A stretch of 23,729 bases of DNA, taken from IMG/VR virus record IMGVR_UViG_3300030380_000105, positions 1 through 23,729 of that record. One strand, 5' to 3'. Below are positions 10,501 to 23,252 of the stretch, one piece after another. The translations under genes and the position numbers were made by a program. The stretch comes from a virus. The first letter of the stretch is position 1, and the number at the start of each line of letters is the position of its first letter. The notes beneath the pieces were generated by a model. The model made no database searches and was not told where the DNA came from. It saw nothing but the letters and a program-made list of their open reading frames with translations.

Positions 10501-10749
10501 CTAATAAATATTAATGATAGAGTTAAATCAGTATCTCTAGATATTAATAGTTTTTATAATGAAGCTGCAAATATTTGGAATAATAGAGGTAAAGATAGTA
10601 ACGGTAAACCTAAAGGTATTAATCCAGACACAGGTAAATTATGGCGAAAAGAATATGAAGAAGCTGCAAAGAAACCCGGAAATGAAGGGCTAACACCGTA
10701 TGCATTATTTGTAATTGATATTACTAATAAACTAAGTGGAGTTAACTAA
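7570..10749 (+). CDS. Large internal virion protein with tail-lysozyme domain
   Basis: 1059 residues, ATG one base after the previous TAG, with AAAGGA upstream. Residues 49-66 read DTVPAWLTPGEFVVNKEA, a motif common in phage virion and tape-measure-like proteins. Residues about 118-270 match the phage tail lysozyme family (Phage_lysozyme2 type): IYNYLKENYP, IAGIMGNIGVETG with E147 the likely catalytic acid, then GMGLFQFDEQR. A flexible acidic/Ser region follows, and a predicted coiled coil around residues 525-580 (KAIDNEINTNKKRINKLLQD onward). The C-terminal 350 residues are unidentified. The role would be local peptidoglycan opening during DNA ejection, like the hydrolase domain of T7 gp16, but here on a separate polypeptide from the large gp16-like protein encoded next. 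Confidence 0.78.
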   Translation: MKLKKFTQKDRYGNMRSFEFDIAEGQMEVPPMTSSIPMYDHPGEPRGTDTVPAWLTPGEFVVNKEATDIYGPVIKQMNDVGREIQDMKPEYAQVGMPVPKPSKDVIAGEKFKNKRSRQSDIYNYLKENYPQLTNDAIAGIMGNIGVETGYTYEYTTRQNENTSDKMGPGMGLFQFDEQRKPYKNWLKENDKSDSMESQLDFFVESIYNQGAVPNPSDKSGFFIGSGNAEALQKSLSSDKPAGKIALDVMSKHLKPGVPHADRRANKAKEIKELIDNKAFGDPSIYDKYREAGVEVPPSSDGFSFNIPNPFSGIKEKAASVAETVKDFIDPNNIGFKFDKPEKISPFKEGGAVHLDPGGKVYGATGQATSTMDDDIMKLIFDSQQNVAKANEILNNNSLSSVQVPEDDSTSISMDMSVPPVPKTFETIPFGADDMIMESNIPDPIGRSNRDIKTGFEEDISDVLPLDQQTFVPSYDPQGLGEERAPEEILGQIKEDDITAEAMSTERPTYGAGNFGYDVNKSDRTTKAIDNEINTNKKRINKLLQDISNTNDNDKIERFRNQVIDLEKQQQQLEIDRQKSIDLPIDKPSELYQGLMDEAEIKNIIVNAKAVLNNPNATQSEKLAAQKVIDTNQPKLPQPDTSEAEINLNNAANQMDDTTANEISNKLATNEGKANLTTNTDPKNPNVQKAKDAMKFLFGDLIDAKEIGRAAAVYLGSRALGYDHNSSINYVAKQYLKRVDAKTAQIDKYIADNADKFEPTSLQAFKDSRGDYSKLMPKGAKVRSTGERKVWYGKDTGPSGQMAYKFKMKTNEGDVVYWSFDENGKSRIGAGYSQDGTKVRNSDPFNAAAEKKIPVIADQMKAFLEKFGRRKTKKDKATGTMQYEDFTDILPEIDAQRVAFWAQENGVPLTRLAEGLEIAMRDAVKNYTDPQKGKTSSKAGSVIPYLEEATIKQRLDRMVPGLTQAKVGDEVVQIDTATLININDRVKSVSLDINSFYNEAANIWNNRGKDSNGKPKGINPDTGKLWRKEYEEAAKKPGNEGLTPYALFVIDITNKLSGVN

Positions 10750-13700
10750 TGACTATTAATATAGATGTGTCTGGTTTTGATAGACCACCACCTATAGATA
10801 ATATGGAGCATCGTTTTATTGATGGTGATACTCTTGTAAATAAAGAAGGTAATCTTCTTAGAATACAAGGTTTAAGTGCACCTGAAATAATGCGTATGAT
10901 AGATGGTAATTTAAAACCTGGAACTGCTGGTGGTTGGGAAGCTACTAAACAAATTAGAAACCTAGCTGAACAGTTTGACTTTAACAACGTACATTATCTT
11001 ACAAATTCTGATGGTACTCCTATGATGGATGCTACTGGTACTAGACAGTTAGTTAGAATTACTGATCCAGATGGTAGAGATTTTGTAGAAACTTTAAACT
11101 CTTATGGTATAGGTAAGCTAAATAGATTTAGTTCACCTGAAGAAATAAGAGCATCACAAATAGGTGCAATGCTTAGAGCAGAAGGTACACCTAGCTTACA
11201 AGATGAAAGCTTAGATCAGTTTGATAAAGCAAGAATAGCTATTAATCAAATGGCTGATAGTGAAAAGTTTTATGAAACTGAATTTAAAAAAGTAGCACTT
11301 GATGAACAAACATTAGCTAGGTTAAATGCTGAAAGACAACCTGGTGAATCAAATGCTATGTATGCTTTAAGAAAAAGAAGAGCTGCTGATTACTCTAATA
11401 ATATGGTATACAAAAGGCATGGCGATAGAACACTTCAAAATAAAGCACTTCATCCTTGGTCTGAAAGTTTTGATACAGGATGGACTGGTGTTATTGAAGG
11501 TGCCTATGGTATGGCTGATATGATCGGTGAAAAAACTGGTATCAATTGGTTAGAAGAGCTTGGTAAAGAAGGTATTAAAAGACAACACGAATATCTTGCT
11601 AACAAACCTGAAACAAAAAATAATATACTAAAATATAAATTAGATGATGATGGTAATGTTACAGGAAATGAATGGGATATAGATGGTGTTGGTGGTTTCT
11701 TTGAGTATATGGGAAACATGACAGCTATGGCTTTACCTTATATGGGTGTAACTATAGGTGGTGCTGCGTTAGCTCCTGTAACTGGTGGTACATCTTTAGC
11801 AGGTGCTACAGGTATTGCTGCGCTATCTAATGTTGGTGCTAGTATGCTTGCGCCTGTTTCAGTATATGCAGGACAGAACTGGAATGAAATGGAAGGTGAA
11901 GATAAGAGTGCTAGCTTAGCTGTAGCAGCTGGTGTTACTATGTCGGTGCTAGATAGACTAGGTCTTAAAGGACTTATGGGAGGTGCTAAGGGTACTTTAT
12001 TAGATTCTAAGTACAGAGATACTATGATACAAGCATATAAGCAGGCTAACCCAGGAGCAACTGATGATATAGCTAAAGCAGCTATAGGTAATATGACTCG
12101 AAAAGAATCTGCAAAGTTAGCAGGTGATGTAGTAAAAGTTGCAAAGGATCAATTAAAGTTTGGTAGTTTATTAAAAAACTTTTCAAAGAATGCCGCTAGA
12201 GGATTTGGTATAGAATCAAGTACTGAATTAGGTCAAGAACTTACTGGTTATATGGCAGCAGTATATGGTAGTGATAAGCCATTTGATTCTGTTGAGCTAT
12301 CTAATAGATTAATTAATGCTTATATTGCAGGAGGAACTTTAGGTGCAGGATTTTCTGTACCTGGAACAGCTTATAATGCAGGCGCATGGGCTGATGTAGC
12401 TGTAAGACAAGCGCCAGCTGAAGATAAACGTTTATCTCAAGAAGGTAAATGGGCTGAAGAAGAAATGACTTTAAATAATGGTATACAAAGAAGTAATAAA
12501 GATATAGCAGAAGAAGCTAAGAAAAGAGCTAGAGCTAGACCATTATCACCGTCTGATGATTTTAATGCTATGGCAGATGCTGGTGAACAACAAGCTAAAG
12601 ATAGAGATACATGGTCAAGTGTAAAAGAAACTGCTAAAGAATTACCATTCTTATGGAAAGGCGCTATGCCTCATTTATTTTGGAAGGATTCTTTTCAAAG
12701 TAAAGCTATAAGAAAATTAGGTTCATTAGTAAATGGTTACTTACATCGAATACATTCTGGTGAAACATTTGAAGAATACAAACATCTTCAATTAGCAGAA
12801 TATAAAAATATGGCTATGACACCTTCTCAAGTTGCACAAGCTTTAGGAAAAAATAATAGAGACCCTATAAGAGATTCAAAATTAATATATGCTTTTGGTA
12901 GATGGTTAGTTTCTAAAGGTGATCCTACTAAAATAATGAATATAGATTGGAATACTTTACCAACTGATTTTGAAGGTGAGTTTGATTTAAAAGCAAATGA
13001 AAAGTTTCTTAGAGAATATTATGTAAAAATAAATAAGCTTGGTAATAAGTTATTTAATGATCAAGTTAAAGTTGAAGAAGAATATAGTGATGGTACTAGA
13101 ACAGGTAAACAAAGTAAATTAAGAGATAATAATGGTAAAGATAGATTTACTAAAAACTATTTATTAAAATATAAGTCTTTAAATAAAGCTAGTATTGAAA
13201 AGAACAAGAATGAATTTATTAAAGCATTGCAAGATGAATTTGGATTTACTTTAGATAGTGCTACTGATTTAACAAATGATATACTTGATAATAATGAAAT
13301 GGTTGATCAAGAAAGTATATATCAAGTTGGTAAAGGTAAACATGTACCAGCACAATTTAAAAGAAGATCATTAGGTTTATCAGAGCGTGCTAGATTTAAT
13401 CAGTTTATGGAAGAAGATCATTTTGTAAACATATCTAATGCAGCTAAATCAGCTACAAGATTTATAGCATACGAAAAGTTTCTTGGTGATAATAATGAAG
13501 TTTTTGCACAGCTATTAAGAGAAGCTAAAGCTGAAGGTTTATCTGAAGAAAGAGTTAATAGAATAGCAGCAGGCTTAAGAGATTACTTACAAGCTGAATC
13601 AGGTAACTATAAAAGAATACAAAATAAAACATTAGAAAATATACAAAAGAATATATTAGTATGGACTACACTTGCAGGATTACCTTTAGCAACTGTATCA

Positions 13701-14846
13701 TCTTTTGTAGAATTTATGATGACTATGAGAGCTTTAACACCTGAACAAATACGTACAGTAATAGGAGTGTCTGCTAAAGAATTTGCACAAGCATTATGGA
13801 GTGGCATAACAAATCCTGGTATTAATTCTGTACAAGCAAGACTTAATAAAGAAAAAAGACAAGCTCGTTTACAGAAGTTAGGATTCTTTGATTGGGATGT
13901 TGGTGCATCACAAACTACAGGTGCTACAGAAAATACTTATGCTTCAAGATATTTATTAGATAAATACTTTAGAGTAATTGGTTTACAACAATGGACAGAC
14001 TACACACGTAATATAAGAGCTGCTATAGCTGATGATTTTATTATGGATCACTTAGCTACTATACAAGTTGCTAGACAAGGTGGTGGAGTTAAAACTAATG
14101 AAGTACAAGAAGCTGAAGAACAATTAAGAAACTTAGGTATTAATGTTAATAGACTTTTAGATTTAGCTAATCAACCAGTTAATGTAATGCCAGGTGAAAG
14201 CATACAGAACTATAGATTAAGAAGATCACAAACAGATGCAGAGCTAGATAGAATATTTATGCAAGCTGAATACAATTTTGTTAATGAAGCTATTGCATTA
14301 CCTGGTACTGCTAATAGACCTTTGTTTTATAACAACCCACACTTAGCTTTATTCACACAGTTCCAAGGTTTTATAGCTACATTTACAGCTAATCAAATAC
14401 CTAGAATGTGGGGTGATTATGTTAAACGTGGTACACCTGCAATGAAGTATAATGCTTTTGCAGTTATGTCAACAATGGTTATGCTAGGATTTGTATCACA
14501 GTATTTAAAAGATCTATTAAAATATGGTATGGCTACACCGTATTTAGATAGAGCTGAAGTAATTCAAAGAGGTATAGGTGCATCAGGATTAATTGGTGTA
14601 GCTGAAAGACCTTTAAACTTCTTCTTTCCAATCTATGAAACATCATCAAGTAACATGGTAGAAGAATTATTTCAAACAGTATCAGGAGAAGCAGCTGCGT
14701 TATCTAATATAACAAGAGCTGCTACAGGTGTCGGTCAAGTTGTAGAAGGGAAAACTGAAACAGGTATCTATAAAATATTAAAGACTATGCCTATTATCGG
14801 ACCTGTTAACCAGCTTAACAGAAATATAGCCGAGCTATTTGCATAA
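10749..14846 (+). CDS. Giant internal virion (ejectosome) protein with N-terminal SNase-like domain
   Basis: 1365 residues, start overlapping the previous stop (TAATG). Residues about 20-125 look like a staphylococcal-nuclease (thermonuclease-like) domain: IDGDT (24-28, D27), R38, GLSAPE (41-46, E46), D-A-T-G-T-R-Q-L-V-R-I with R99, then FVETLNSYGIGKL matching the family's 'V-N-x-x-L-V-x-x-G-L-A-K-V'. The residue equivalent to SNase D40 is serine (S43). Residues about 320-375 and 520-545 are hydrophobic Gly/Ala segments. IESSTELGQELTGY (488-501) is a pattern seen in large polyvalent/ejection proteins. C-terminal hydrophobic helices lie near 960-990 and 1235-1260, with LFTQFQGFIATFTANQIPRM near 1200. 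Size, composition and position indicate a T7 gp16-type ejection protein. Nuclease activity is unproven. Confidence 0.75.
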   Translation: MTINIDVSGFDRPPPIDNMEHRFIDGDTLVNKEGNLLRIQGLSAPEIMRMIDGNLKPGTAGGWEATKQIRNLAEQFDFNNVHYLTNSDGTPMMDATGTRQLVRITDPDGRDFVETLNSYGIGKLNRFSSPEEIRASQIGAMLRAEGTPSLQDESLDQFDKARIAINQMADSEKFYETEFKKVALDEQTLARLNAERQPGESNAMYALRKRRAADYSNNMVYKRHGDRTLQNKALHPWSESFDTGWTGVIEGAYGMADMIGEKTGINWLEELGKEGIKRQHEYLANKPETKNNILKYKLDDDGNVTGNEWDIDGVGGFFEYMGNMTAMALPYMGVTIGGAALAPVTGGTSLAGATGIAALSNVGASMLAPVSVYAGQNWNEMEGEDKSASLAVAAGVTMSVLDRLGLKGLMGGAKGTLLDSKYRDTMIQAYKQANPGATDDIAKAAIGNMTRKESAKLAGDVVKVAKDQLKFGSLLKNFSKNAARGFGIESSTELGQELTGYMAAVYGSDKPFDSVELSNRLINAYIAGGTLGAGFSVPGTAYNAGAWADVAVRQAPAEDKRLSQEGKWAEEEMTLNNGIQRSNKDIAEEAKKRARARPLSPSDDFNAMADAGEQQAKDRDTWSSVKETAKELPFLWKGAMPHLFWKDSFQSKAIRKLGSLVNGYLHRIHSGETFEEYKHLQLAEYKNMAMTPSQVAQALGKNNRDPIRDSKLIYAFGRWLVSKGDPTKIMNIDWNTLPTDFEGEFDLKANEKFLREYYVKINKLGNKLFNDQVKVEEEYSDGTRTGKQSKLRDNNGKDRFTKNYLLKYKSLNKASIEKNKNEFIKALQDEFGFTLDSATDLTNDILDNNEMVDQESIYQVGKGKHVPAQFKRRSLGLSERARFNQFMEEDHFVNISNAAKSATRFIAYEKFLGDNNEVFAQLLREAKAEGLSEERVNRIAAGLRDYLQAESGNYKRIQNKTLENIQKNILVWTTLAGLPLATVSSFVEFMMTMRALTPEQIRTVIGVSAKEFAQALWSGITNPGINSVQARLNKEKRQARLQKLGFFDWDVGASQTTGATENTYASRYLLDKYFRVIGLQQWTDYTRNIRAAIADDFIMDHLATIQVARQGGGVKTNEVQEAEEQLRNLGINVNRLLDLANQPVNVMPGESIQNYRLRRSQTDAELDRIFMQAEYNFVNEAIALPGTANRPLFYNNPHLALFTQFQGFIATFTANQIPRMWGDYVKRGTPAMKYNAFAVMSTMVMLGFVSQYLKDLLKYGMATPYLDRAEVIQRGIGASGLIGVAERPLNFFFPIYETSSSNMVEELFQTVSGEAAALSNITRAATGVGQVVEGKTETGIYKILKTMPIIGPVNQLNRNIAELFA

Positions 14847-14856: not shown

Positions 14857-17800
14857 ATGGCAATAAATGTTAATGTACCAGGACAAACCCCTTCAATAAC
14901 TCAGGGCAATTTACCTACGGATATATTAGAAAAATCTAAAAACTTACCGCTAGCAGGATTCATGCCTACGATTGCTGAAGATACTTTTGTACAGCAGCAA
15001 GATGTTGCTAGAGTTATGGGTGCAGACTTACAAGATCCAGGTATTACAGAGCAACCTGAGCAAGGTAATGCAGAACCTTCAGCACAAATTGAAATACCAG
15101 ATCAAGTAGTTAAGCCTGCTCCTGGAGAAGGTATATCTATTGAAGCTCAGCAAAGAGAACAGGAAAGAGTTAAGTCAATACCAGAAGTACAAGGAGTAGT
15201 TACATTAGCTGGATTAGATGCAGTTATTAATGGAACTGATTCTGCTATGGTTGGTCCTATGATAAGAGCTAAAAATTTACAGGGTATTAATGTAGGTGGT
15301 CAGGCTTTTGGTAGATTAGAAAGAGAAACTTTAGCAGATACAAATAGTTGGGAAGCAACTTTTACTGCAAGAAGAAAAGCAAATGAAGCTAAGAAAACTG
15401 GTAAAGATCCAGTAGATGTAGAGCTGACTACTAAGTTTCCTTTACTAAGAAACTCTACAATTGAAATGAGTAATAAAGCAATACTATATCATCCTGAAGT
15501 ATTAGATGCAGGATTAATAGATGATCAAGGTTTAGTACAATTAGATAATGATTTATTAACAACTATGGGTTTAGTAGCTGAGCAGTTTTATATTCAGGGT
15601 ATGTATACTACAGATAATAAAAGTGCTGAAGCTATAGATGAAACTGAATTGGCTGATGGTAATGTAGCTAAACAAATTAAGTATAGTAAAGCACAGGGAA
15701 GAGCACAATTAGGTAGAGAAGTATTTAAACAATATAAAAGATTGCAAGCAGATAAAAGAGGTTTACCTACAGATACTTATGCTGCTAGTATGCAATCAAT
15801 TCCTAATCATGTATTTGTACAGATAGGTGACTTAGCTAAAGAAGGGTATCATAGAGCCAACCCAGATATGCTTACACGTTCATTAGAAAATGGGCAAGTT
15901 ACTTTTACTTTAACACCAAAAGGTTCTGGTATATTTGAAAATTTATATCACATGTATTCAGGTTTATTTGGTAGAGAAGAAGTTAAACCTATGGTTGCAC
16001 CAAGTGAAGACGGCCAAATGGTTTTTGAGGGTCAGACATATACTAGGAAAGTTACTACACAGATTGGTGATCTTGGTGATACAACAAAAGTATTTGAAGC
16101 AATGTCTAATATGAATAAAGTTGCTTTTGTAAATGATCCTCGTAGAGAAGCTACTAGTGTTATGTTATTTATGTTAGCATTAGCAAATGCAGGAAGACCT
16201 GAAAAAGTACAAGATAATCAAGAACCTATGTATAGATCTAATCCTACAACAGATGACTATGCTAATATGTTTAAGATAGGTAAACAGAAATATCAAAACT
16301 TAGTTAGTGAAAAAGCAAAACTATTTAATGCTGCTGAAAGAGCTTCACAACAGAGTAAAGATAAAAAAGCAGCATCGCTAAGAGCACAAGCAGAAGCTTA
16401 TGATCCTATTAATATTCTTAATCTTGAAAGAGAAAATGCAATAGGTATTGTTGAAGGTATGCTAAGATACTCTGGTAAAGCTAATTATTTAACTTTTGCT
16501 ATGCAAGCATTAACTGGAAGGATGCATGCACAACAAACTGTATATAATCCTCAGGCAAAGAAAATAATTAGAAGTGTTGTAGGTAGTGGTAATGTTTATC
16601 AATGGGTTCCAGGTCAAGGTAAACTAGACACAACTTTTATTGAAGCTATGTCTGCACATTTATTTGAAAATCCAAAGCTATCTGGAATGGATGTAAACTT
16701 TAAAAAGAAATATGGTATTGCTAGAACACCACAAGAAAGAATTAAAGTTTTTAAACAAGAAGAATTAAATGCTGAAACTAATCCTGCTAATAGTTTATAT
16801 ATGAAATATGTAGCAATGGGTGAAGAATTAATTAAGCTTACTCGTAATTATAAAACAAAAACTGCGCAAGGATTATTAGCTAGATTTAAAAATGCTACAA
16901 GTCCTAGTGAAGTAAGATCAATTAAACAAACTATAGGTCAGCAGTTTGGCGGTGATCCTATGACGCAGGGTTTAAAATCTTATCTAGCAAAGTATGAAGA
17001 TGAAGCTGTATTGCAAGCAGATTATTTAATGGCATTAGCAGATTATCATAGAATTAAACAAGCTAACTTAAAAAATCCAAGTAGCCCTCAAACTTTTAAA
17101 TCTACTATTTCATTAGAGATGGATGGTAAAACTCATGGTCCTTCTACTATGGCTGTGTTATTAGGTAGTACTAATATGGCTAAAAGATCTGGTATTATAA
17201 TGGATCAGAACTTTGAAAAGATGGTAGAGTCCGGTGAATTTGCAGATCTTAGAGATGCTATGGCTGATACTATGATAAAGAAATTTGATACAATAACTCA
17301 AGGTGTTACTTATATTAATCATGAAAATCAGGATGTATATAGAGATATACTTATTGCTGCTATTGATGATAGAGAAAACTTTTTAAAGAAGTCACCTATG
17401 ACTATGGGTTATGGTCAAGAGATTGGATCATTAGTTGGTCATGTAGATAATGCAGTATTTATGAGTTCTGATATTCAAGATATGATTAGAGATCATAACT
17501 TAAATACTAATGAGGTTGTAGAATTTTTACACACAATATTAGTTGATTCTATATTTGAAACTATGGATCCTGAAACATTAGCAGCAGCTAGACTTATAAA
17601 AGCTAATGCATTTATGTCTGCTATATCAGGATCATTAATGAAAATTAAGCAACCTACTGGAATACTTTCTACAATTGCAGGTACAGATTCTTTACAGGAT
17701 GGTGCTACACAATATGAATTAGATGGTAAACCTACTACAGTACAACAATATAAAACTGTTACTAACCCAGGAGCATCAAGAAAATTATTTGGTGAAACTG

Positions 17801-18552
17801 AAATTGCTGGTGCCTTTACTACTGGTAGATTATTACCTGCATTAACACAAGGCTTTGATGCTAATATGATTACTAGAACTTTTACAGATTCATGGTCAGC
17901 AATACAACAAGCTGCTAAATCAAATGGTGCTTCAAATACTTTTGTGCTACCTATCTTTGATGCGTTTTTATTAGACTTAGGAACTGCTGATATAGTTAGG
18001 AAAGAAGCAAATAGACATCATAAAGAATCATTAATTAATGAAGATTTCTTAGAAAAAGTTACAGGATATTATAACAATAAATTTAAAAGTGACTTAAATA
18101 AAATACCAGATAATGAAGTATTTGATACTACAGAAGATGCTAGTAAATTTAAAGTTATTAGTGAGCTATTTGAAGTAAGTGAAACTAATAGATCTTCTAC
18201 AGGAACTTCAAAAGGTATTGCACAAATGCTTAGAGCACTAGGCTTTGGTAAATATAATTGGAATAGACAAGAAACTTTAGCAGAGTGGAATGATAGAATA
18301 TCAAAACAATCTTTTATTGATTCTAAAATAATTGAAGCTAAGCTAGATAAGATGTTAAAGAAAAAAATATCTACTAGTTTAGATAAGCTTACTGGTAAAG
18401 AAATAAAAACTATTATAAAAGAAATAGATAATGCTTTACAAATAGCAGCTAGAAATAAAGGTGCTGAAAAAATAATAGGTGATAAAAGAGCAGCTGTAAG
18501 AAGTATTGTTAATAGTGATATGAATACAGTTAACGTAGATCACAATACTTAA
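14857..18552 (+). CDS. Candidate virion-encapsidated single-subunit RNA polymerase (N4 vRNAP-like)
   Basis: 1231 residues, the last gene of the virion cluster. Four signatures of the T7/N4 polymerase fold occur in order. LTGRMHAQQTVYNPQ (552-566) matches T7 GRVYAVSMFNPQ, with R555 for T7 R425. LEMDGKTHGPSTM (753-765) is motif A, D756 for D537. KKSPMTMGYG (844-853) is motif B, with K844 and Y852 at the T7 K631/Y639 spacing of 8. FVLPIFDAF (1029-1037) is motif C, D1035 for D812, preceded by LTQGFDANM (996-1004) for VHSQDGSH. Intervals A-to-B (88) and B-to-C (191) are close to T7's 94 and 181; R555-to-A (201) is longer than T7's 112. Some positions are degenerate: A551 replaces the D of DxxGR, and motif C has F-D-A-F instead of H-D-S-F. 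The first about 500 residues have a Pro/Gln-rich linker (60-110) and are unidentified, and about 195 residues follow motif C. I infer packaging and early transcription from gene position. An inactive structural derivative is the alternative. Confidence 0.78.
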   Translation: MAINVNVPGQTPSITQGNLPTDILEKSKNLPLAGFMPTIAEDTFVQQQDVARVMGADLQDPGITEQPEQGNAEPSAQIEIPDQVVKPAPGEGISIEAQQREQERVKSIPEVQGVVTLAGLDAVINGTDSAMVGPMIRAKNLQGINVGGQAFGRLERETLADTNSWEATFTARRKANEAKKTGKDPVDVELTTKFPLLRNSTIEMSNKAILYHPEVLDAGLIDDQGLVQLDNDLLTTMGLVAEQFYIQGMYTTDNKSAEAIDETELADGNVAKQIKYSKAQGRAQLGREVFKQYKRLQADKRGLPTDTYAASMQSIPNHVFVQIGDLAKEGYHRANPDMLTRSLENGQVTFTLTPKGSGIFENLYHMYSGLFGREEVKPMVAPSEDGQMVFEGQTYTRKVTTQIGDLGDTTKVFEAMSNMNKVAFVNDPRREATSVMLFMLALANAGRPEKVQDNQEPMYRSNPTTDDYANMFKIGKQKYQNLVSEKAKLFNAAERASQQSKDKKAASLRAQAEAYDPINILNLERENAIGIVEGMLRYSGKANYLTFAMQALTGRMHAQQTVYNPQAKKIIRSVVGSGNVYQWVPGQGKLDTTFIEAMSAHLFENPKLSGMDVNFKKKYGIARTPQERIKVFKQEELNAETNPANSLYMKYVAMGEELIKLTRNYKTKTAQGLLARFKNATSPSEVRSIKQTIGQQFGGDPMTQGLKSYLAKYEDEAVLQADYLMALADYHRIKQANLKNPSSPQTFKSTISLEMDGKTHGPSTMAVLLGSTNMAKRSGIIMDQNFEKMVESGEFADLRDAMADTMIKKFDTITQGVTYINHENQDVYRDILIAAIDDRENFLKKSPMTMGYGQEIGSLVGHVDNAVFMSSDIQDMIRDHNLNTNEVVEFLHTILVDSIFETMDPETLAAARLIKANAFMSAISGSLMKIKQPTGILSTIAGTDSLQDGATQYELDGKPTTVQQYKTVTNPGASRKLFGETEIAGAFTTGRLLPALTQGFDANMITRTFTDSWSAIQQAAKSNGASNTFVLPIFDAFLLDLGTADIVRKEANRHHKESLINEDFLEKVTGYYNNKFKSDLNKIPDNEVFDTTEDASKFKVISELFEVSETNRSSTGTSKGIAQMLRALGFGKYNWNRQETLAEWNDRISKQSFIDSKIIEAKLDKMLKKKISTSLDKLTGKEIKTIIKEIDNALQIAARNKGAEKIIGDKRAAVRSIVNSDMNTVNVDHNT

Positions 18553-18738: not shown

Positions 18739-19011
18739 TTACATATTATACATATAAGATTTAGCTTTCTTTAATGCTTGGTTCTTATATTCTGTTGCAC
18801 GTTGCATGCCTTCTTCTTCCATACCTTTACCGTTATAGAAGTCTACTATTCTATCATGCTCTGTTTGAATTATATGAGCATCTAATTGTTCATCAGTCAT
18901 TTGATCTGCCAAAGCTGGATCCATTCCTAACTCTTTTAATGCTGTTTTATTATCAGGTTGTAAACCTAATTTTACTGGTAATATTCCTTTCTTATGCGAA
19001 GAAGTATTCAC
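18739..19011 (-). CDS. Unknown 90-residue early protein
   Basis: Last gene of the minus-strand block. It starts at a GTG inside the end of the RNA polymerase gene (20-base overlap), with GAGAGG about 10 bases upstream. The product is soluble, charged and mostly helical, with an acidic central stretch (MTDEQLDAHIIQTEHD) and a Lys-rich C-terminus (NQALKKAKSYMYNM). No membrane segment, cysteine pair or known motif is visible. Co-translation with the T7-like polymerase suggests it is made at the same time, for instance as a host-takeover or polymerase-modulating factor, but nothing in the sequence shows this. The terminator follows directly after the stop. Confidence 0.7.
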   Translation of the reverse strand: MNTSSHKKGILPVKLGLQPDNKTALKELGMDPALADQMTDEQLDAHIIQTEHDRIVDFYNGKGMEEEGMQRATEYKNQALKKAKSYMYNM

Positions 19012-21181
19012 TTTTATTTACCTCTCTAATATCTAAGCTTCCAAGCCTAGGTTGGTTATGATTAAAATTATCAGGATTAGTTATGATCATTCTTTCAATT
19101 ACTTCAAAGAAGTTAGGGTAGCTATACATTTCTATAAATTGATCTTTAATAAGCTGTAATAACTCATCAACATCACATGCATGTACACTAAATGAATCGT
19201 GTACGGCGCCAAAATCCTCCCCCCATTTAGAAATAACTTTAGCCATATGAGATGCATCCATTGAATGCACAAAGTTAGGTGAGATACCCGACATAAAAGA
19301 TCTGATCTTAGGTTTATCAGTAGGCTCTTTACCTACGTGTTGTATTCTTATAGTATCAGTTTCTTCTTTAGTACCATCTTCTTTAATTATAGTAGGCTTA
19401 ACAGCTCTCTCACTACAACTTATAATAGCTTTTTCTTTGAATTCATTCTCAACAAATGCTTCATATATAACAGGGAATCCTGATGGTGTTGTCCATTTTA
19501 TTGCTTTTTGTTTAATAAACTTAGCATAGTCAGAGGCTATCTCAGCTTCTGCAATCTTCTGTAAAAATTTCATAGTTTGTAGTGGACCTGCACAAACATT
19601 ATCAATTGCTTTAATTAAATGCTTTGCAAGCATCTCACAATCTTCTTTAGTAATATCATACTTATTTAAATACCCTTCAACATGACAATCAAGATACATA
19701 TTCTCTGCAATCTTCTGTGCTCCAGCACTATATGCTCGAGTCATTGAACCGCGTTTAGCTATACCTTTACGTATATGTTTCATTGGCATTTGTCTTTCTT
19801 CAAACCAATCAGGAACTCTCTTGATTAAATCTTTAGCACACTGTACATAAAAATCTTTTTGTATATCCTGTGGTACAATTCCAACTAACTCTCCTGCTTC
19901 TTTATCTTTAGACATAGCACATAGATGTTGCCATCCATTATTAGAACCGTCAATTGGTATTGGAAGATAAGTAATATATTCTTCTTGTTCAAGTGCATCT
20001 TTAATTTCTAATACACTAGCTAATAAACTAATAGGTTTTTCTGCATTAGCATCGATAATTTCTTTATCAGCTATCTCTAATAACTTTTCAATATTATTAT
20101 CTGACCATGCTTCACGATCTTCTAACGTCATTTTATCTACAGATATATCATCTAACTCTTCATCTTTTAAGTAAGGTTTATAATCTGTTGTTAACCAGTT
20201 AGGAAGATTATCTTTATGATATGTTTCATTATAACAACATGCTATATGAATCTTTAATCTTCTTAATCCCTCATCAGTCATAGGCTTTCCTTTAGAGAAA
20301 AGCATTTGACCTCTAGCTATATCATTACCCTGGAAGTTTAAGAAAGGTGTTGTGTAATATAACCTACCTCTATAATCTGCTTCAGTATATTGATAAAATG
20401 GTTTGTCACCTATTAAATCCGATCGTGCCATAGTTAAATCAAATTCTATTATCTTTGATTTATATTTCTTAGGAAAGTTTTTGTACTGATCGAGTATCTT
20501 ATCTCTATTACGATTTAATATATCTCTAACTTTAGTATTAATTTTCCATTCAGTTTGTTGTAATACATTCATACTTTTAATAAATGTATTAGCTAAGTAA
20601 GGTTTAAATAATTTATTTTTATCTAAGGTCCAACCTTTTATTACAGGTCTTCCTGTAGATTGCATTAAATTATTTATAGGTTCAGGCTTTATAAATACAG
20701 TACCTTTAAGTAAGTTTTCACTACCTTCTGGTATACTTAAATCCCATTTTTCAGGTACTACTATATAATGTGCGCGACTTCTTTTAAGACTTCTATCAAG
20801 TTTTTCTATAGGTATAAAAGTATTATCTCTAGTTTTACCTATATTAATTTGATGTGTTTGATAGAACGGTTCTAAAAATAAATCACCCATCATTACTCTA
20901 AGCTTAAACCAATCCCAGGGTGCATCCTTTTCATTATTATAATTAATTTCAGTTAATATATGTGTACCAATAGCCACACTTAAATGAGTAAGATTAGCTT
21001 CACCCTGGTATGATTTGTTTCCTCGCATACTATTACGAGTAAAGTGTTGTTGAATAGTATCCATAGCAAATACTAAGTACGCTTTTAGATCTTCTAACGA
21101 AGTTTCTTTTAAAAGATTACAAGCGATATGTGCTTTAGATTTAGTAATCTTTAACTTTAAGTAGTTAAGTTGTTCCTCCAT
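18992..21181 (-). CDS. T7-like single-subunit DNA-directed RNA polymerase (compact)
   Basis: 729 residues. The catalytic set is complete: DYRGR (269-273), motif A PIDGSNNGWQHLCAM with D411, motif B KRGSMTRAYS with K476 and Y484, PNFVHSMDASHM (635-646), and motif C AVHDSF with D662. The C-terminus GSLDIREVNKSEYFFA parallels the T7 C-terminal foot (LRDILESDFAFA), so the gene is intact. The first conserved element lies about 150 residues closer to the N-terminus than in T7 (D421), so the N-terminal promoter-binding domain is reduced; the size is nearer the summed N4 RNAPII subunits than T7's 883. The ATG has GAAGGG upstream, and the start overlaps the dCMP deaminase end by 25 bases. It should transcribe middle/late phage genes from phage-specific promoters, none of which I could identify here. 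Confidence 0.95.
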   Translation of the reverse strand: MEEQLNYLKLKITKSKAHIACNLLKETSLEDLKAYLVFAMDTIQQHFTRNSMRGNKSYQGEANLTHLSVAIGTHILTEINYNNEKDAPWDWFKLRVMMGDLFLEPFYQTHQINIGKTRDNTFIPIEKLDRSLKRSRAHYIVVPEKWDLSIPEGSENLLKGTVFIKPEPINNLMQSTGRPVIKGWTLDKNKLFKPYLANTFIKSMNVLQQTEWKINTKVRDILNRNRDKILDQYKNFPKKYKSKIIEFDLTMARSDLIGDKPFYQYTEADYRGRLYYTTPFLNFQGNDIARGQMLFSKGKPMTDEGLRRLKIHIACCYNETYHKDNLPNWLTTDYKPYLKDEELDDISVDKMTLEDREAWSDNNIEKLLEIADKEIIDANAEKPISLLASVLEIKDALEQEEYITYLPIPIDGSNNGWQHLCAMSKDKEAGELVGIVPQDIQKDFYVQCAKDLIKRVPDWFEERQMPMKHIRKGIAKRGSMTRAYSAGAQKIAENMYLDCHVEGYLNKYDITKEDCEMLAKHLIKAIDNVCAGPLQTMKFLQKIAEAEIASDYAKFIKQKAIKWTTPSGFPVIYEAFVENEFKEKAIISCSERAVKPTIIKEDGTKEETDTIRIQHVGKEPTDKPKIRSFMSGISPNFVHSMDASHMAKVISKWGEDFGAVHDSFSVHACDVDELLQLIKDQFIEMYSYPNFFEVIERMIITNPDNFNHNQPRLGSLDIREVNKSEYFFA

Positions 21182-21612
21182 TTGCTGCCCTTCACTTTTA
21201 TATTATTATTTAATAACAATAGTATACCTGCTTCATCAGTATATGTTTCACTGAAAAGAACTCTTGTTATACCTGCTTGCATTATAAGTTTAGCACATTC
21301 AATACAGGGTGAGAGAGTGCTATATAATGTAGCACCCTCTGAACTTACTGTACCTTTTGCTAACTTACATAATGCATTAGCTTCTGCATGTATAACTTCT
21401 TTCTTAGTAGAACCGTTAGGATTTTTGCATTCATTATTCATACCCGAAGGCATACCATTAAATCCAAATGCAAGTATATTATTATCTTTAACTATTACGA
21501 CACCGACTTTATTATCGGTATCGTGTGACATGTTACTTACTTCTTTAGCAATATTTAAATACAACTTATCATATCTATCTTGCTTAGTTACTGCATCAGT
21601 GTAGTTACTCAT
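21157..21612 (-). CDS. Deoxycytidylate (dCMP) deaminase
   Basis: Converts dCMP to dUMP, feeding dTTP synthesis. The 151-residue sequence has the cytidine deaminase-like zinc site: HAEANAL with H75 as ligand and E77 as proton shuttle, and SPCIECAK with C103 and C106 as ligands. VVIVKDNNILAFGFNGMPSG (38-57) is the typical dCMP deaminase start, and the length fits the phage family. The ATG shares a base with the stop of the primase-helicase (TAATG) and has GGAG 6 bases upstream. It overlaps the RNA polymerase gene by 25 bases, so replication, nucleotide and transcription genes form one coupled unit. The enzyme works with the reductase encoded on the other strand. Confidence 0.93.
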   Translation of the reverse strand: MSNYTDAVTKQDRYDKLYLNIAKEVSNMSHDTDNKVGVVIVKDNNILAFGFNGMPSGMNNECKNPNGSTKKEVIHAEANALCKLAKGTVSSEGATLYSTLSPCIECAKLIMQAGITRVLFSETYTDEAGILLLLNNNIKVKGSKWRNNLTT

Positions 21613-23252
21613 TAGATCTCCATAAATACATTATCAGTAGATGTTAATCTTCCTGTTTTAGTATCGTACACAGCTGAACCTGCTGAACCTGTAAGACCTG
21701 TAAATCTAGATTTTAATACTCTAAACTTAATTGTATTACGTTCAATTGCATTATCAGCTACTAAGTTTCTAGCAAATGCTACTATATCAAATGATATTTG
21801 TTTGATAGAACCACTACCTTTAATATCATCTATAGAAGCTAGCTTACCTTCCTCGAATGAAGCACCACCACCTGGGGCTTTTCTTAAGTGTGAGATTAAA
21901 CATAACCATACATTATGTTTCTTAACAATCTTAAGTAAGTCACTCATTACTTTATCGATTGCTTCGTTACCAGATAAACCTTCAGCGCCTTCTGATACCG
22001 CTATAGTTATATGGTCTAGTACTAGGTATTTACAACCCATTAAACACATATACTCTATCTTATCTGTTAATGTTGAGTCACCAACAGAACCTTGATGATC
22101 TAGTAATATTAATCGTTCATCACCAAATACTTTCTCAAATCCTTGTCGTAAATCTTTATCAGAAAGATTATTAGTTTCGTGATCTAGCTTTTGATTCAAT
22201 GACATTTCAATAAACTTTTCAGCTGTATCACCTACACTTTCTTCGAGTGATATTAAACCAACTTTATTTTCTTCTATAACGCCATCATTATCTGGTTTAT
22301 CTTCAAGTAAATCAAGTATAATTTCTTTAACGATTGTTGATTTACCAGAGCCAGTACCACTTGTAAACAAAGTAATCTCGCCTTGCCTTATACCTTTAAG
22401 CTTATCATTTAAACCTGTTAAGCATTTAGGATAAGGTCTAGACTTAGTTTGTTGTCTTTGTTGAAACTGTTCCCATATAGATTCACCCATTACTAAACCA
22501 GCGGGTGACCAGGTTTCTGCATCCCAGTAGCTTTGTAATAAACTTTGAGGTCCATGCTTTAGTAGTTGTTCACATGGATCTTTCTCTAATAGATTAGCTA
22601 CTTTAACTTTACCAGCACCAATTATCTTAGCAACTTTTTGTACTGCAGCTTGACCAGCTTCATCTTTATCAAAGAATAATATTACAGATTCAAATCGTCT
22701 AATCCATTCTCGTTGTGCTAGTACAACTTTACAACCTGTAGCACTAGGCATAGATACTACTGGAAATATTTTATTATATTTATTTAAGAATGCCTGAGCT
22801 ACTGCGCAAGCATCTAGTTCGCCTTCAGTTATAACAAGTGTTTTACCACCGCTTGAAACTGATTGACCAAACAATTCTACATTATTAAAGTTACCGTGTG
22901 CTATAAAACTTTTTGGCAACTTACGTTCTTTATATGCAATTACTCTACCTTCATTAGTGTAAGGATAGAAGTGTGAACCACCGGAACCATCAGGATTTAC
23001 AGCCATTTTAATTCCGAAGTGATCTACTACTTGTTTAGATATACCACGACTGTTAATAGGAAAACTATTTAAGTCATGAATTTCATCAAGTGTTATGCTA
23101 CTATTAGGTTTAGTAACAGGTTCTAAGTCATTCATAATGTTTACTTTCTTAGTTGAATATTGACATGAGAAACAATACGCGCCGTCTTCATAGATTGTAA
23201 ATGCATCTGATGAATCACACTTAGGGCATGATGTTTGTTTATAATTTCCCAC
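21612..23252 (-). CDS. T7 gp4-like primase-helicase
   Basis: A bifunctional replication protein of 546 residues. It has an N-terminal zinc ribbon (C9, C12, C27, C30), a TOPRIM primase core with VITEGELDA (E143) and ILFFDKDEAG (D195, D197), then a RecA/DnaB-type helicase with Walker A SGTGSGKS (298-305, K304) and Walker B YLVLDH (D413). LISHLRKAPGGG (452-463) resembles the later helicase motifs. The order and length match T7 gp4 (566). It starts at a GTG with AAAGGA 9 bases upstream and overlaps the end of the RusA gene by 14 bases. An in-frame ATG at residue 40 could give a zinc-less helicase as in T7, but its ribosome-binding site is weak. No DNA polymerase is in the window. Confidence 0.95.
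   Translation of the reverse strand: MGNYKQTSCPKCDSSDAFTIYEDGAYCFSCQYSTKKVNIMNDLEPVTKPNSSITLDEIHDLNSFPINSRGISKQVVDHFGIKMAVNPDGSGGSHFYPYTNEGRVIAYKERKLPKSFIAHGNFNNVELFGQSVSSGGKTLVITEGELDACAVAQAFLNKYNKIFPVVSMPSATGCKVVLAQREWIRRFESVILFFDKDEAGQAAVQKVAKIIGAGKVKVANLLEKDPCEQLLKHGPQSLLQSYWDAETWSPAGLVMGESIWEQFQQRQQTKSRPYPKCLTGLNDKLKGIRQGEITLFTSGTGSGKSTIVKEIILDLLEDKPDNDGVIEENKVGLISLEESVGDTAEKFIEMSLNQKLDHETNNLSDKDLRQGFEKVFGDERLILLDHQGSVGDSTLTDKIEYMCLMGCKYLVLDHITIAVSEGAEGLSGNEAIDKVMSDLLKIVKKHNVWLCLISHLRKAPGGGASFEEGKLASIDDIKGSGSIKQISFDIVAFARNLVADNAIERNTIKFRVLKSRFTGLTGSAGSAVYDTKTGRLTSTDNVFMEI

Follow-up and report, generated by a model that had tools for sequence, protein, structure and literature searches.

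In schitoviruses, N4-type virion RNA polymerases (vRNAPs) are giant proteins, of about 3,500 residues by the published description (PMC12633501). The plan given in that source for N4 gp50 comprises a membrane-type N-terminal domain, an RNA polymerase (RNAP) domain (residues 998 to 2103), and a large autoinhibiting C-terminal domain with an HExxH motif. A 2015 review states that all but two of the species with a vRNAP homologue also have a heterodimeric RNAP (PMC4496689). In the account of N4 given there, three vRNAP promoters lie in the leftmost 10% of the genome, the promoter being a hairpin with a loop of three bases; a G:C pair closing the loop and, within it, a 5′ G and a 3′ A are required, and four As stand close to the start (PMC4496689). 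The cultured roseophage CRP-7 is described with one RNAP, ORF30 (PMC6918029). Here, we analyzed virus record IMGVR_UViG_3300030380_000105, a stretch of 23,729 bases (the window), in which an open reading frame (ORF) running from an ATG at 14857 to a stop codon ending at 18552 encodes a product of 1231 amino acids (aa). The gene would otherwise pass for that of a large, uncharacterized particle protein of a phage; our evidence supports reading it as a second RNAP, kin to the N4 vRNAP.

Scans of viral contigs returned 4 near-identical loci, 32 loci with the motif region, and 70 loci via an alignment, A1, with contigs recurring among the scans. The 99 loci yielded 63 nonredundant ORFs, 50 of which, read stop to stop, were at least 1160 aa long (range, 1163 to 1599 aa). 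A second alignment, A2, combined window residues 100 to 1231 with 44 of the 63 ORFs (45 rows; close duplicates and some short fragments were omitted) and had a mean column identity of 22%. The first-pass annotation of this DNA had singled out R555, D756, K844, Y852, and D1035 as polymerase motif residues, and a script check of the translation verified all five at the positions claimed. R555 sits in LTGRMHAQQTVY, with NPQ after it; D756 lies in EMDGKTHGP; K844 and Y852 both lie within KKSPMTMGYG, with a spacing of 8; and D1035 lies in PIFDAFL, with TQGFDANM preceding the motif. D756, K844, Y852, and D1035 were invariant in all 45 rows of A2, and R555 was invariant in 43 of 43 (the remaining two rows are fragments lacking that region). 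Because the peptide patterns used to find the loci included motifs A and B, the conservation of these two motifs is partly selected; neither R555 nor D1035 was in the patterns. Judged from the alignment, the five-residue set is not a chance match.

The same conservation bears on whether this is a former polymerase that now serves as a noncatalytic structural or ejection protein. Such a protein might be expected from its fast divergence: in 20 of 21 representative loci, identity to the window was 24 to 44% for the vRNAP-like protein versus 48 to 90% for the accompanying T7-like RNAP; the ejection-type protein ranged from 33 to 59% (19 loci with a value). In one close relative (L038), the corresponding values were 94% (vRNAP-like), 92% (T7-like RNAP), and 95% (ejection type). 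Retention of all five catalytic residues in every relative that covers them, down to about 24% identity to the window, makes a noncatalytic role very unlikely.

Profile comparison placed the protein among single-subunit RNAPs. The N4-type profile comprised 14 vRNAPs, namely, N4 and 13 others picked from a list of 40 that were spread across the 381 matching records; all 14 but Ochrobactrum phage ZX86, which has no family, are classed as Schitoviridae. Alignment A2 matched this profile with a probability (Prob) of 98.7% and an E value of 2.3e-16 over 738 columns, whereas control profiles (one reversed and six column shuffled) reached a Prob of at most 0.3. The match pairs each of the five residues with an N4 residue (Table 1). 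A T7-like profile of eight RNAPs (T7, six others, and the window's own T7-like RNAP) was matched with a Prob of 93.4 and an E value of 2.6e-7 over 371 columns in an alignment that kept motifs A, B, and C in register; the score was higher for the N4 vRNAP (161.6) than for the T7-type RNAP (74.0). We take the T7 RNAP counterparts of the motif residues to be D537, K631, Y639, and D812. Among the 23 members of A1, 13 individually matched PHROG 414, "RNA polymerase" (best, 7.1e-8), which the window polymerase did not, and one matched PHROG 2206, "virion RNA polymerase" (6.2e-5).

Several searches weigh against this identification. The window polymerase alone matched no relevant Pfam or PHROG family and no PDB sequence, and it had no match among INPHARED phages (tblastn; E value, 0.01); one distant relative likewise had no relevant INPHARED match by tblastn. 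Alignment A1 had no match among PDB sequences. With hhalign, significance was reached only with profile against profile; A2 against single sequences was not significant (Prob of 8.9 for N4 gp50, 1.5 for T7 RNAP, and 0.1 for the window's T7-like RNAP). A GLEYA match of the window polymerase was dismissed as chance, at 22.1 bits against a cutoff of 26.2. A family A DNA polymerase, or an unrelated protein with chance motifs, would fit the lack of a relevant single-sequence database match. The MTxxYG element is an RNAP form of motif B, the profile matches are to RNAPs, and the structure matches described below point the same way, which together leave that explanation almost no room.

An AlphaFold2 model built from A2 had a predicted local distance difference test score (pLDDT) of 84.6 and a predicted template modeling score (pTM) of 0.83. 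Foldseek found 72 PDB matches to it at an E value of ≤0.001, and all 50 of those listed were T7, mitochondrial, or N4 RNAPs. VIA-align gave a Z score of 22.0 against T7 RNAP (542 residues, 5.4 Å) and Z scores of 20.5 (764 residues, 7.9 Å) and 19.8 (763 residues, 7.3 Å) against N4 mini-vRNAP. Matches listed from BFVD were mainly phage RNAPs and vRNAPs, some rows being nameless. The model and its structure matches show the cupped-right-hand polymerase fold. From the alignment to the N4 catalytic residues and this overall fold, the five residues would be predicted to form one active site. The first-pass annotation had staked its claim on matches to single-subunit RNAPs; matches were found, and profiles and fold bear out both that identity and the closeness to the N4 vRNAP. 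On these comparisons, the protein encoded at 14857 to 18552 is a single-subunit RNAP; the N4 vRNAP is a closer relative of it than T7 RNAP is, although its motif B resembles that of T7.

Table 1. Features of the window discussed in the text (N4 residues in mini-vRNAP numbering)
Feature	Positions	Strand	Basis
Compact virion-type single-subunit RNA polymerase gene, 1231 aa	14857..18552	+	ORF, relatives' alignment, profiles, model
R555 codon, TxGR...NPQ motif; pairs with N4 R424	16519..16521	+	
D756 codon, motif A (E-x-DG-x-THG); pairs with N4 D559	17122..17124	+	
K844 codon, motif B; pairs with N4 K670	17386..17388	+	
Y852 codon, motif B; pairs with N4 Y678	17410..17412	+	
D1035 codon, motif C; pairs with N4 D951	17959..17961	+	
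Putative ejection (internal virion) protein, 1365 aa, directly upstream	10749..14846	+	PHROG virion structural protein matches, tblastn
Putative virion protein, tail-lysozyme domain, 1059 aa	7570..10749	+	Pfam Phage_lysozyme2 1.5e-17
T7-like single-chain RNA polymerase, 729 aa, convergent	18992..21181	-	Pfam RNA_pol 5.2e-60; PHROG 414 5e-102
Toprim/DnaB-type primase-helicase, replication (early/middle) arm	21612..23252	-	Pfam

Compared with N4 gp50, the window polymerase is homologous across most of the polymerase domain, and the TxxGR, A, B, and C residues correspond one to one. It differs in having polymerase-domain size plus a short N-terminal tail, with no HExxH, and in its MTxxYG motif B, which is as in T7 and unlike N4. 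The three-domain chain of about 3500 aa is absent; at 1231 aa versus 3500, the product is about a third of the length of the N4 vRNAP, as the first-pass annotation had put it, and the window protein is the N4 polymerase domain alone. HExxH was found in none of the 63 nonredundant family ORFs. In one relative (L072:5153-9586, 1478 aa), an insertion lies between motifs B and C (residues 1045 to 1150), with a weak NADAR-domain match (E value, 2.1e-4; 22.0 bits, below the Pfam cutoff of 35.1). With T7 and Autographiviridae RNAPs the window polymerase shares the fold and the register of the motif A, B, and C residues; it differs from T7 RNAP in the weaker profile match and in being encoded with virion genes beside a separate T7-like RNAP.

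The gene setting also resembles that of N4, in which gp50 stands with gp51 and gp52; both polymerase genes adjoin ejection-type genes. The product of the gene directly upstream is weakly homologous to structural proteins of virions, chiefly those of Pseudomonas podophages, with tblastn also matching CRP-7, and together with the tail-lysozyme protein before it this upholds, as far as homology shows, the ejection-gene setting proposed in the first-pass annotation. An ejection-type gene lies upstream in all loci holding more than 0.5 kb of upstream sequence. The idea that the giant N4 gene is divided in this phage, with the upstream 1365-aa protein carrying N4's N- and C-terminal domains, found no support (hhalign Prob, 0.1 to 0.3, a weak test that used N4 alone).

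That the polymerase is a second one was likewise confirmed, the window having a T7-like RNAP on the opposite strand (Table 1). A T7-like RNAP gene lies downstream on the opposite strand in 90 of the 99 loci (contigs recur), and the remaining nine stop no more than 0.8 kb from the vRNAP-like gene; when every distinct ORF is counted once, it is present for 56 of 63. In all 13 related records, PF00940 had exactly one match, in a single ORF of 729 to 808 aa, and the 729-aa T7-like RNAP of the window and a single-chain RNAP of CRP-7 align from end to end. A heterodimeric RNAPII (gp15 plus gp16) was not found in these 13 records, the search for a split partner being confined to PF00940. The partner RNAP of the window phage is thus one chain, whereas that of N4 is a heterodimer. 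In a contig of the window's own species (that of L002/L168), the T7-like RNAP match comes in two pieces with one TGA inside (G017:C1:8878-11062); the T7-like RNAP gene of this contig is broken or misassembled. Two related records are probably complete because of their end repeats, namely, G002 (58,008 nucleotides [nt]; 77-nt repeat) and G008 (55-nt repeat). G002 has most of its genes in two arms that are transcribed in opposite directions, and its vRNAP-like gene is located close to the end of the structural one. Also in the window, a ribonucleotide reductase gene (340 to 2085; Pfam Ribonuc_red_lgC, 2.5e-108) stands beside structural, not replication, genes.

Taken together, we consider it likely that this is a DNA-dependent N4-type vRNAP reduced to its polymerase domain, packaged, ejected, and used to transcribe the early arm from hairpin promoters. 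Synthesis of the polymerase would be late, at the same time as that of the particle and ejection proteins; the enzyme would then be packed into the head and enter the cell along with the DNA. Once delivered, it would start early-arm transcription at hairpin promoters, and the early/middle arm would then give the T7-like RNAP, presumably serving the remaining genes. Single-subunit RNAPs usually act in the cell, and an active but unpackaged enzyme, made in the cell for late transcription while the T7-like or host RNAP does the early work, would also account for a protein whose 1231 residues leave no room for the N4 flanking domains and which has no HExxH. Presence in the virion is predicted from gene position and kinship, and a further point counts against the packaged reading: the polymerase lacks N4's N-terminal membrane domain and C-terminal domain, and the test of the upstream protein offered no substitute for them. 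The unpackaged enzyme seems improbable to us given that the gene lies beside an ejection-type gene on the structural strand, as N4 gp50 does with gp51 and gp52, that the protein scores closer to the N4 vRNAP than to T7-type RNAP, and that a T7-like RNAP is already encoded in the same genome.

Candidate promoters were sought beyond the window, in ten related records, by a repeat search in G002 and a scan of all ten. The hairpin families were defined after looking, and the G002 family was found by the repeat search, the G+C-filtered scan having missed G002. Five of the ten records hold families of perfect hairpins in which the loop is nearly fixed per genome and the stem is variable (21 copies). 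On the early strand, the loops are TCRC in G001 (2 copies), TAWC in G002 (5 copies), ATYC in G007 (6 copies), ARAA in G008 (4 copies), and ACAAG in G009 (4 copies). All 21 family-loop hairpins in early-strand orientation lie inside the early arm, which makes up 25 to 29% of each record; in the opposite orientation there was one further family-loop hairpin, also within the G007 early arm. In plan, these elements of five relatives resemble the early hairpins of N4. The first 5 kb of N4 holds AAGAAGC-TCC-GCTTCTT and AAGCTGC-TCC-GCAGCTT (stem, loop, stem), and a third early hairpin, GTTGC-TTC-GCAAC, was found by a pattern built after the first two; we infer that the three are the known vRNAP promoters. 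The G001 hairpins AAGAGGC-TCGC-GCCTCTTTTTC and AAGTGGC-TCAC-GCCACTTTTTC follow an N4-like plan, and on the template strand the first loop base is G and the last is A in both G001 and G002. We propose that such genome-specific early-arm hairpins, as seen in the relatives, serve as promoters of the window type of polymerase.

Comparison with shuffled sequences gave mixed results. With one-mismatch loops and stems of at least 7, the largest family exceeded 40 shuffles in G002 (8, three of them nonfamily, versus a maximum of 6) and G007 (6 versus 4). With exact loops and stems of at least 6, G007 (4), G009 (4), and G008 (3) stood above the ≤2 obtained in 20 shuffles each, and G001 and G002 had <3. 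Weighing against the promoter proposal, the first test did not set apart G008 (reached by 3 of 40 shuffles), G001 (10 of 40), or G009 (27 of 40), and the late region of N4 also exceeds its shuffles, so the shuffle test is not promoter specific. In addition, the scan showed no hairpin family in five records (G003, G004, G005, G006, and G012); three of these (G004, G005, and G012) extend no more than about 10 kb upstream of the RNAP gene and contain little early arm.

The hairpins could instead be transcription terminators or RNA 5′-end structures, uninformative on the polymerase, a possibility to which we give appreciable weight while holding it clearly the lesser. Ts follow the stem in G001, in G002, and in most G007 copies; 11 of the 21 copies either overlap a same-strand stop codon or follow one by no more than 35 nt (median from the previous stop, 34 nt); and the next start with a ribosome site is a median of 104 nt away. 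An exact 22-base hairpin pattern occurs in nine contigs, five of which belong to the window group by DNA similarity to G001, and one of these five, a point in favor of the promoter reading, carries the full-length window polymerase (99.6 to 100% identical) and its T7-like RNAP. The other four (L169 to L172), which have the same 22-mer and no match to the window group or to the window's two polymerases, also speak for a function unconnected with the polymerase. The L169 to L172 hairpins are flanked by A and T runs and have the look of bidirectional or ordinary terminators.

A terminator would not by itself call for a loop that stays constant while stems differ within one genome, nor for the lack of family-loop hairpins outside the early arms, and most G008 copies have no T run. 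The first G002 copy lies in a divergent region ahead of the first early gene. Ten of the 21 hairpins lie 20 to 75 nt before an ATG with a ribosome-site-like stretch, versus 7 to 10% of random arm positions, coding included. In G007, G008, and G009, a hairpin lies 26 to 28 nt before the DNA polymerase ATG with differing stems and loops, the G009 loop there not being the family loop; six other genomes have no hairpin before the DNA polymerase ATG, a start that in G012 lies outside the record. One G001 copy falls within the 3′ portion of a small ORF, with the next gene 34 nt farther on; this copy is retained beside the downstream gene in L167, where the upstream stretch is deleted. On balance, early-arm hairpins that act as promoters of the virion-type polymerase are the fairly probable reading.

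The gene order recurs in CRP-7, which has a T7-like RNAP gene, two small genes, a 1235-aa opposite-strand gene (gp33), and an ejection-type gene. By eye, gp33 (L121:17859-21566, annotated as hypothetical) has E-x-D-A, R-x7-Y, and IHDA in order. It is possibly a very divergent homologue in which Arg replaces the motif B Lys; gp33 gave no significant profile match, and its AlphaFold model (six sequences) was poor (pLDDT, 35.7). The ribonucleotide reductase of CRP-7 (L121:35552-38170, gp44 to gp46) occupies two annotated ORFs separated by a hypothetical ORF of 157 aa, an arrangement that an intron or inserted gene would produce.

What is new here is the compact polymerase in a family of uncultured marine phages, N4-type vRNAPs being already known. 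The first-pass annotation had regarded such an enzyme as novel for so compact a phage; compactness of the polymerase stands as the new feature, and genome size does not, Enterobacter phage EcP1 (59,080 nt) having a full-length vRNAP gene. No description of the compact family appeared in the titles or abstract openings among the matches listed; PMC12629253 concerns another phage group. We lean slightly toward the fuller proposal of a marine phage family with N4-style early transcription, a stand-alone vRNAP of 1200 to 1600 aa, genome-specific hairpin promoters, and coevolution of loop and polymerase. Such coevolution, if true, would explain the faster divergence of this polymerase relative to the T7-like RNAP encoded alongside it.

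If this proposal is true, vRNAPs need neither a giant three-domain chain nor a heterodimeric second RNAP. Comparison with a naturally occurring minimal enzyme from another group of marine phages would allow the roles of the additional N4 domains to be tested, and the compact polymerases may yield small enzymes that start on DNA hairpins of differing sequence. The finding would account for one kind of large gene labeled "hypothetical" in marine viromes, and it predicts that infection by such phages can begin without host RNAP.

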